A stretch of 64,000 nt of DNA from Streptomyces sp. SUK 48 (GTDB lineage: Bacteria; Actinomycetota; Actinomycetes; Streptomycetales; Streptomycetaceae): positions 6,858,001 through 6,922,000 of the forward strand of contig NZ_CP045740.1 in NCBI RefSeq assembly GCF_009650765.1. The letters are read 5' to 3'. How positions within the stretch are numbered: the first letter of the stretch is position 1; each line of letters starts with the position of its first letter. Shown piece by piece: positions 29,307 to 30,640 of this stretch. The translations under genes and the position numbers were made by a program. The notes beneath the pieces are model-generated. The model saw only the letters and a list, made by a program, of their open reading frames with translations. It made no database searches and had not been told where the DNA came from.

Positions 29307-29615
29307 TCAGCCCACGGCGTCCGGCGGAAGCGCGACGCGAGCGGCCCGGCGCTCACCGTCGAGCACCCTCAGCGCCCGTGCCAGCGTGCCCCCGTGCACC
29401 TCCCGCTCGCCCCGGTCGTGCATCAGCTCCAGCGCGTCGCGCAGCTCCTCCGCCTTGCGCACCAGCGCCTGCGCGGCGCGCAGCCCGCGATAGGTGTCGC
29501 CGTCGCGCGCCGGGTTGATCCTGCCGAGCAGGTCGACCACCGCCAGATAGTGGTCGACCACCTCGCCCTCCGCGTGCGTCAGCGCCGGCAGCGGCGGCAG
29601 CTCCTCGGGCAGCAC
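29307..29615 (-). CDS. Hypothetical helical protein co-transcribed with clpP
   Basis: A 102-residue, mostly alpha-helical, charged protein (VVDHYLAVVDLLGRINPARDGD, LVRKAEELRDALELMHDRGE) starting at GTG 29615, seven bases after the clpP-like stop. No signal peptide or membrane segment is present and no family is recognised. The tight spacing suggests a partner or adaptor of the ClpP-like protein. Confidence 0.7.
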   Translation of the reverse strand: MLPEELPPLPALTHAEGEVVDHYLAVVDLLGRINPARDGDTYRGLRAAQALVRKAEELRDALELMHDRGEREVHGGTLARALRVLDGERRAARVALPPDAVG

Positions 29616-29622
29616 GGCCGGC

Positions 29623-30249
29623 TCACCGCTCGCCGGGGAGGTCCCGGCGGCTGGGCACCACGCCGTCCACCAGGCCGTACGACTGCGCGCCCGGCGCGTC
29701 CAGCATGAGATCGCGCTCCAGGTCCTGGTGGACCTGCTCCTCGGTGCGCCCGGTGTGCCGGACCAGCATCTCCTCCATCAGGGTCCGCAGCCGGACCAGT
29801 TCCTCGGCCTGGATGAGCAGATCGCTCGGCTGGCCCTGCGCCGGCTCGGGCAGCTCGGGCTGGGAGAGCACCACGCGCGCGCCGGGCAGGGTGAACCGCT
29901 TGCCGGGGGTGCCGGCGGCCAGCAGCACGGCGCCGACCGAGGCGGCCTGGCCCAGGCAGTACGTCTGCACCTCGCAGGTGACGTACCGCATCGTGTCGTA
30001 GACGGCCGTCATCGCGTGGAACGAGCCGCCCGGGCAGTTCAGGTAGAGCGTGATGTCCCGGTCCGGGTCCAGGTGTTCGAGGTGCATGAACTGGGTGATC
30101 ACATCGCCGGCCGCCGCCTCGTCCAGGGGCGTCCCGAGGAAGACGACCCGGTTCTCGAACAGCTTCGAGTAGGGATCGAGCCGGCGCTCCCCGAAGTTGG
30201 TGCGCTCGGTGAACTCGGGCAGGACGTAACGGGCGGACGGTCGGGACAT
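29623..30249 (-). CDS. ClpP-like protease subunit lacking the catalytic histidine
   Basis: A protein of 208 residues with the full ClpP fold: FENRVVFLGTPLDE, LYLNCPGGSF, nucleophile Ser104 in GQAASVGAVLLAAG, and LERDLMLDAPGAQSYGLVD with the aspartate at 180. The catalytic histidine motif xxHQP reads VLSQP, placing serine at 129, exactly 25 residues after Ser104 as in E. coli ClpP (97 to 122). The Ser-His-Asp triad is therefore broken, and a structural or regulatory subunit is likely, perhaps mixing with the housekeeping ClpP1/P2. It may match the fifth Streptomyces clpP gene. Confidence 0.92.
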   Translation of the reverse strand: MSRPSARYVLPEFTERTNFGERRLDPYSKLFENRVVFLGTPLDEAAAGDVITQFMHLEHLDPDRDITLYLNCPGGSFHAMTAVYDTMRYVTCEVQTYCLGQAASVGAVLLAAGTPGKRFTLPGARVVLSQPELPEPAQGQPSDLLIQAEELVRLRTLMEEMLVRHTGRTEEQVHQDLERDLMLDAPGAQSYGLVDGVVPSRRDLPGER

Positions 30250-30295
30250 CTGGGCACACCCCTCCTCACGGCGGAGACCGGCGATCTCCGACTTC

Positions 30296-30331
30296 TGTAC
30301 AGAATGTACAGGACGTACCTGCCGTTATGAT
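30296..30331 (+). promoter_or_regulatory. TGTACA operator repeats and promoter of the antitoxin gene
   Basis: TGTACAG occurs at 30296-30302 and again at 30305-30311, with a weaker CGTACC at 30314-30319. TGTACA is the known core operator of YefM-YoeB systems. A -10 TATGAT (30326-30331) ends six bases before the ATG at 30338, indicating a nearly leaderless transcript. The same sites lie about 50 bp upstream of the divergent clpP-like gene. Confidence 0.75.
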
Positions 30332-30337
30332 GGGCGC

Positions 30338-30640
30338 ATGGCCTACGAGATTCCGGTGACGCAAGCCAGGGCTGAGCTCGCCGACCTGATCAACCGGGTG
30401 GTGTACGGCGGCGAGCGCGTCGCCGTGACCCGGCACGGCAAGCCGCTGGCCGCACTGGTCTCGGCCGCCGACCTGGCACGGCTCGAGGCTCTCGACGCCG
30501 CCGAGGAGGCGGGCGAGGAGCAGGTGGCCCGCTCGGTGTCCCGTATCCGCGAGTCCGCCGTCCACGAGGCGCCGTCCGCTCCGCGCGAACGCCAGCGTTT
30601 CGGCATCGCGGCGGAGTACCAGGGGCCGGGCGTTTCCTGA
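30338..30640 (+). CDS. Phd/YefM-family antitoxin, no toxin alongside
   Basis: A 100-residue Phd/YefM protein: EIPVTQARAELADLINRVVYGGERVAVTRHGKPLAALVS is the typical DNA-binding fold. The C-terminal 45 residues (ALDAAEEAGEEQVAR) would wrap a toxin. No RelE/YoeB or Doc gene follows; the next gene is ureA. It is divergent from the ClpP-like gene and shares a control region with TGTACA sites. It may act purely as a transcription regulator of the clpP operon. Confidence 0.88.
   Translation: MAYEIPVTQARAELADLINRVVYGGERVAVTRHGKPLAALVSAADLARLEALDAAEEAGEEQVARSVSRIRESAVHEAPSAPRERQRFGIAAEYQGPGVS

Follow-up and report, generated by a model that had tools for sequence, protein, structure and literature searches.

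ClpP paralogs without a working catalytic triad are known from cyanobacteria and plastids, in which the ClpR proteins, whose triad loss is old, are kept as subunits of the protease ring. In Streptomyces, ClpP1 is reported to carry out catalysis and ClpP2 to dock the Clp ATPases (positions S94, Y96, and Y116 of the S. hawaiiensis protein), while the serine of ClpP2 is dispensable (PMC9765437). ClpP5, the fifth ClpP of the genus, has been little explained since about 2000, and in S. lividans its gene is described as monocistronic (Viala et al. 2000, as cited in PMC9765437). ClpP inhibitors of several classes are reported to target typically the active-site serine of the enzyme (PMC9753991). ClpPADEP, reported to be closest to ClpP1, breaks up the complexes of ClpP1 and assembles with ClpP2 into a functional one (PMC12607617), clipibicyclene was found by using ClpP as a putative resistance gene (PMC9854587), and the MTA cluster contains mtaL, a potential ClpP self-resistance gene (PMC13386464). 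Toxin-antitoxin operons of the yefM-yoeB and axe-txe type are reported to carry palindromes with a TGTACA core, spaced 12 bp centre to centre (PMC7730913), and related palindromes are described in the S. lividans yefM-yoeB promoter (PMC3303803). The literature searched, the coverage of which excluded the original ClpP5 and clipibicyclene papers, contained no account of a ClpP5 that has lost triad residues, of a partner gene, or of a Phd gene beside clpP.

We analyzed a window of 64,000 nucleotides from the 8.34-Mb chromosome of a Streptomyces strain (G000), in which a gene on the minus strand (29623..30249) encodes a 208-amino acid ClpP protein (PF00574, E-value 9e-61, 205 bits against a cut-off of 20.2; start codons were placed by a script to match the window proteins). 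This protein likely belongs to the ClpP5 class, to which it was assigned by elimination where a genome encodes five ClpPs, and its nearest named loci are those of S. griseofuscus, S. murinus, and S. malaysiense (97–98% identity). Aligned to Mycobacterium tuberculosis ClpP2, its triad reads S104-S129-D180 (codons at 29938–29940, 29863–29865, and 29710–29712, all on the minus strand) and thus departs from Ser-His-Asp. The alignment bears out the initial annotation, according to which Ser104 and Asp180 are kept and the motif VLSQP puts a serine at position 129 where active ClpP has histidine. Seven nucleotides after the clpP stop codon, on the same strand, starts a gene for a 102-amino acid protein (29307..29615; hereafter, the partner). 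Its adjacency agrees with the co-transcription proposed initially, although the transcript itself is deduced from this spacing. Divergently from clpP, and separated from it by 88 nt, lies a gene for a 100-amino acid Phd/YefM protein (30338..30640, plus strand; PF02604, 5e-13, 49.1 bits; TIGR01552) that ends in the motif RFGIxAE. The next gene on this strand encodes urease gamma (at 30872, PF00547), followed by urease beta and alpha. Profile searches over positions 26335–33917 identified regulators, an ATPase-domain protein, an NlpC/P60 protein, and the urease genes as neighbors; the NlpC/P60 gene (28259–28933) lies downstream of the clpP operon, and at 26335–27433 a DUF397 protein follows an HTH_31/DUF5753 regulator, a common pair in Streptomyces.

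The missing histidine proved to be one case of a recurrent pattern. We collected 98 loci with the partner, including the window copy, and found an intact Ser-His-Asp triad in only 36. Across these loci the serine is replaced by A, G, P, F, or E, the histidine by R, E, Q, or S, and the aspartate by E, L, G, T, S, or Q. After removal of identical and truncated orthologs (the truncated L108 and L141 were also left out of the tree), 58 of the 92 distinct proteins have a broken triad and 34 an intact one, a ratio that is not an unbiased frequency for the genus because 77 named loci were picked through peptide patterns of the window protein. Among the 29 best-scoring places besides the window's own (L005–L033), 19 triads are broken and 10 are intact. 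By comparison, ClpP1 and ClpP2 of 19 genomes (the host and 18 chosen ones) have Ser-His-Asp in 38 of 38 proteins. A maximum-likelihood tree built without the triad columns and with five outgroup ClpPs requires at least 9 changes between the intact and the broken state, with minima of 12 changes at Ser, 9 at His, and 7 at Asp, which rules out one single loss of the histidine. Because the five outgroup proteins are all intact, loss is the simplest direction of change. The window protein falls in a 7-member S-S-D clade with support 100/100. Altogether, the ortholog sequences show that triad residues have been lost repeatedly within ClpP5 and that Ser, His, and Asp are all affected, whereas R179, which adjoins the catalytic aspartate, is invariant. 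That 34 of the 92 orthologs keep the full triad also means that the module does not require inactivity. Triad state and number of ClpPs per genome were compared by eye, and we claim no link between them.

We then examined the region shared by clpP and phd. The initial annotation had pointed to two exact TGTACA sites as the known YefM-YoeB operator core, and both are present (30296..30301 and 30305..30310, the latter being the conserved core and ending 27 nt before the phd start codon), but they are 9 bp apart instead of the 12 bp of yefM-yoeB. A degenerate third site, CGTACC (30314..30319), lies 9 bp beyond the second, so that the three sites follow a 9-bp period; its GTAC is invariant in 70 aligned operators. 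By eye, TATGAT at 30326..30331 (plus strand), which ends 6 nt before the phd start, is a possible -10 hexamer of phd; a promoter and terminator scan of the locus returned no match, and a consensus scan gave no sigma-70 promoter. Within the window alone the TGTACA word is weakly informative: it occurs 5 times against 1.6 expected, a count reached by 1 of 100 shuffles. The comparison between loci is more telling. Besides the window, 97 loci were available, and phd lies within 300 bp of clpP in 82 of them. TGTACA is found in 81 of these 82 divergent intergenic regions (L131 is the exception), at 27 or 28 nt from the phd start in 69 and at other distances in 12, 8 of which have spacers of 119–228 nt. 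Intergenic regions shuffled so as to preserve letters, not dinucleotides, contain it in 1.4% of cases and at 27/28 nt in 0.04%, which rules out a chance origin. Of the 15 loci without phd within 300 bp, 14 still have TGTACA before clpP, and L018 does not. In the 70 aligned operators, which were chosen for a TGTACA at 20–30 nt so that this word is fixed there by the selection of rows, AATGTACAG is invariant, as is the GTAC of the second site. The longer word AATGTACAGGANGTAC occurs exactly once in the host genome, at this locus; allowing 2 mismatches gave 6 further matches against 3 for the reversed control. The shared clpP-phd region thus contains a conserved operator-like element, and by analogy within the family the Phd protein probably binds it. 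At the eight loci with a clp-phd spacer of 119–228 nt (L010, L030, L082, L086, L091, L092, L095, and L097), the operator stays near clpP and phd has a different promoter-like end, GGTCTAAGCTGGA in most.

The partner was described initially as a helical protein of 102 residues, and three helices are indeed predicted (mean pLDDT of the model, 74.9). Pfam and NCBIfam searches assigned it to no family, and neither a sequence profile against the PDB nor Foldseek or VIA-align yielded anything usable; the helical matches that appeared were dismissed as generic. The protein is nonetheless highly constrained, with 40 invariant columns in an alignment of 36 sequences, and its gene starts 3–8 nt past the clpP stop codon in 97 of the 98 loci, the exception being a truncated locus. 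The partner is present in 327 of 392 Streptomyces genomes, and 65 gave no match. Among 61 relatives it occurs in 32 of 37 members of the genus and in none of the 24 others. A search of a very large protein set returned 1620 relatives; among the 120 listed, the named ones are from Streptomyces except one 'Actinobacteria bacterium', and one of the loci collected (L129) is from Actinacidiphila. All 32 partner-bearing genomes among the 61 also have Phd, which is found in 33 genomes in total: 32 with ClpP5 and G016, which has a remnant of the module together with the cluster cassette described below. Four members of the genus without ClpP5 (G008, G012, G023, and G035) have neither Phd nor partner, and in G010 Phd accompanies a ClpP5 in which every triad position is altered, with no partner match. 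Phd lies 0.9 to 14 kb from clpP5 in G003, G005, G019, G020, and G036 and on another contig in G032, and it was not seen within the flanking DNA of L066, L069, L089, and L101. The initial annotation had proposed to check whether the three genes stay together across Streptomyces, and the module is genus-wide. Since 65 genomes have no partner match and some contain remnants, the module is dispensable. Partial partner matches without a full adjoining ClpP5 (L175, L177, L180–L186, and L192/L194, the last pair being clear remnants of the module) indicate that it is lost now and then. In several loci with a distant Phd, an insertion resembling a mobile element interrupts the region at the phd start, and the operator remains next to clpP5. 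Several species have an insertion at this start codon or close to it (L005, L016, L066, L068, L069, L101, and L107), some with similar ends, a TTCTRGTGATCCAC-like sequence followed by CAGGTCAG, and the site is possibly a hot spot for an IS element; the element type was judged by eye.

The reading that we prefer, and to which we give about an even chance, is that the locus encodes a Phd-repressed, catalytically dispensable subunit of the ClpP2 type that, with a dedicated cofactor, would enter Clp barrels in the place of ClpP2. The orphan Phd/YefM protein would occupy the TGTACA-type tandem sites that separate phd from the divergent clpP5 and would repress one of these genes or both, a role suggested by its family and by the conservation of the sites. 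The operon would produce a ring subunit of the ClpP2 type together with a small helical cofactor. Because ClpP1 provides catalysis and ClpP2 docks the ATPases, a paralog of the ClpP2 type can lose its active site and remain as a docking or gating ring. Upon relief of repression, possibly triggered by damage to Clp, ClpP5 and the cofactor would replace ClpP2, resulting in a barrel with altered substrate choice or in one that is in part insensitive to compounds attacking the ClpP serine. By itself, the ClpP5 of the window lineage should not cut. The docking residues speak in part against this reading. We mapped S94, Y96, and Y116 of S. hawaiiensis ClpP2 onto ClpP5 positions 67, 69, and 89, which in the 35 intact sequences are S (34) or E (1), Y (35), and F (28) or Y (7), respectively. 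In the 61 broken sequences position 69 is Y in 60, but positions 67 (T26, S26, A4, Q3, and C2) and 89 (Y41, F10, S4, V3, T2, and L1) drift. The report of clpP5 as monocistronic in S. lividans (PMC9765437) and the lack of a relative for the modeled partner in the fold search likewise count against it.

Further information on the function of the module came from paralogous sets of genes at biosynthetic clusters. Five of the 392 genomes (G016, G082, G088, G175, and G390; loci L195–L199 and L203–L208) encode a partner homolog 50–53% identical to that of the window, and in all five the gene order is Phd, thioesterase, ClpP, partner, and then PKS. The cluster Phd is 58–64% identical to the window Phd and is preceded in 5/5 loci by the paired-site pattern YGTACAGGAYGTACAG, and the cluster ClpP has Ser-His-Asp in 5/5. 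In G016, Pfam delineates modules of the types KS-AT-KR and KS-AT-DH-KR, along with an NRPS that has condensation and adenylation domains. At its start, the first PKS of the other four loci shares 76–81% identity with the G016 protein. G082 and G390, the two others in which this part of the DNA was examined, also encode the second PKS and the NRPS. The cluster ClpP groups with Streptomyces ClpP2 (support 98/97), and joining it to ClpP5 was rejected (p-AU 0.015), in a test for which the groups were named from an earlier quick tree and whose bootstrap had not settled. Related versions of Phd, operator, and partner thus accompany two different ClpP paralogs, and this is the strongest indication that the partner acts together with ClpP. 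The five clusters are candidate producers of a Clp-directed compound. An azetidine synthase of the clipibicyclene type was considered, but the methyltransferases tested near two of the five clusters match MppJ best; by eye, none was seen among the ORFs listed for G016, and we therefore leave the product unnamed.

These clusters bear on a second explanation, which we regard as possible but hold tentatively: ClpP5 and its partner may be a resident defence against natural products that target ClpP, taking over once the housekeeping ClpP is attacked. A dead triad would then be adaptive because serine-directed inhibitors cannot acylate it. The operator-Phd-ClpP-partner set before PKS genes in 5/5 loci fits this explanation, as do the reported use of an extra ClpP for self-resistance (PMC12607617, PMC9854587, PMC13386464) and the typical binding of several inhibitor classes to the ClpP serine (PMC9753991). 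However, the cluster ClpP keeps its triad and groups with ClpP2 and not with ClpP5, and the window copy adjoins urease genes. As proposed initially, Phd may be a Clp substrate, which would be plausible for a member of this family, but the idea sits poorly with a defence role: if Clp degraded Phd, inhibition of Clp would stabilize the repressor, which counts against that step. In the preferred reading, too, the module is perhaps a resident counterpart of the self-resistance cassettes against ClpP inhibitors. A broader version, which we offer with similar reserve, is that Phd, the operator, and the three-helix partner constitute a portable control cassette for spare ClpP subunits. In the core genome, a repeatedly 'blunted' ClpP5 would shield the essential Clp system against antibiotics that attack ClpP, and some producers would have combined a version of the cassette with a ClpP2 copy for self-resistance in a PKS-NRPS cluster, the product of which would hit Clp.

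Antitoxins of the Phd/YefM kind normally grip their toxin by the C-terminus, and this end is strongly conserved here: F88 and G89 are found in 99% of 88 core sequences and A92 in all, and the five cluster copies keep F, G, L, and A in 5/5. The initial annotation had described the protein as lacking a toxin gene. This holds, given that the adjoining gene encodes urease gamma and that YoeB (PF06769) and ParE/RelE (PF05016), the two families covered by the genome-wide search, have no match in the host genome. This genome encodes one full PF02604 protein; a second match is partial (profile positions 3–35, 22.7 bits, within an 851-amino acid frame) and exceeds the cut-off only together with its neighbors in the frame. 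The partner and ClpP, common to both genomic settings, are candidate ligands of the Phd C-terminus, and in our preferred reading of a Phd-repressed ring subunit one of them would probably occupy the slot of the toxin and tune repression. The same features could be taken to mean that the module is a toxin-antitoxin-like pair in disguise, in which the partner, or ClpP5, is the harmful or active component that the Phd C-terminus neutralizes. The small size and constraint of the partner, the near-complete retention of the C-terminal F, G, and A, and the presence of Phd in each of the 32 partner-bearing genomes, even when distant or on another contig, would agree with this. We nevertheless consider it unlikely, because the partner has no toxin-family Pfam match and no relative in solved structures, phd is divergent from clpP and the partner instead of forming a single operon with them, and G010 has Phd and ClpP5 with no partner match.

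That ClpP5 is a dying paralog, decaying without function so that broken triads are steps toward a pseudogene, is quite improbable, since the many different losses at all three triad positions and the module remnants in several genomes have to be set against dN/dS values for clpP of 0.12–0.37 in 21 broken pairs, like the 0.13–0.44 in 11 intact pairs (pairs selected by hand from the tree), 43 positions that are invariant in all 61 broken sequences, and the retention of operator and partner beside the broken forms. Judged from these ratios, triad-broken ClpP5 is kept under purifying selection, as would be expected of the dispensable-triad subunit that we favor.

The initial view of the locus was correct as to the broken triad, the missing toxin, and the operator-like element, but it missed that the module is genus-wide, that the triad was lost repeatedly, and that a paralogous set exists at PKS-NRPS loci. 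With these, a partner and an operator can be assigned to the ClpP5 class, along with a likely regulator, and its catalytic residues are shown to be optional. The five PKS-NRPS loci point to a cluster that may make a Clp-directed compound, and the cassette offers a handle for mining genomes for new ClpP-active natural products. If the proposed role of Phd is true, a YefM-type antitoxin would act as the plain regulator of a protease subunit.

Compared with known systems, the window protein resembles Streptomyces ClpP5 in standing alone, outside the P1P2 and P3P4 pairs, a match made by elimination, and differs from the S. lividans gene, described as monocistronic, in having a conserved second gene. 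ClpR shares the absence of a working triad, whereas in ClpP5 there have been many losses, at different residues, and intact orthologs exist in related species. As in YefM-YoeB and Axe-Txe, a PF02604 protein has TGTACA sites before its own gene; in contrast, no toxin was found here, the sites are 9 and not 12 bp apart, and the gene is divergent from a clpP operon. Five paralogous loci combine an extra ClpP with biosynthetic genes, as do the ClpPADEP and ClpP-inhibitor clusters, but ClpPADEP is reported to be nearest to ClpP1, while the cluster ClpP described here resembles ClpP2 and is accompanied by Phd and the partner, and the window copy has urease neighbors. Pseudo-ClpP subunits and ClpP resistance copies are already known, and here they are placed under an unusual regulator.
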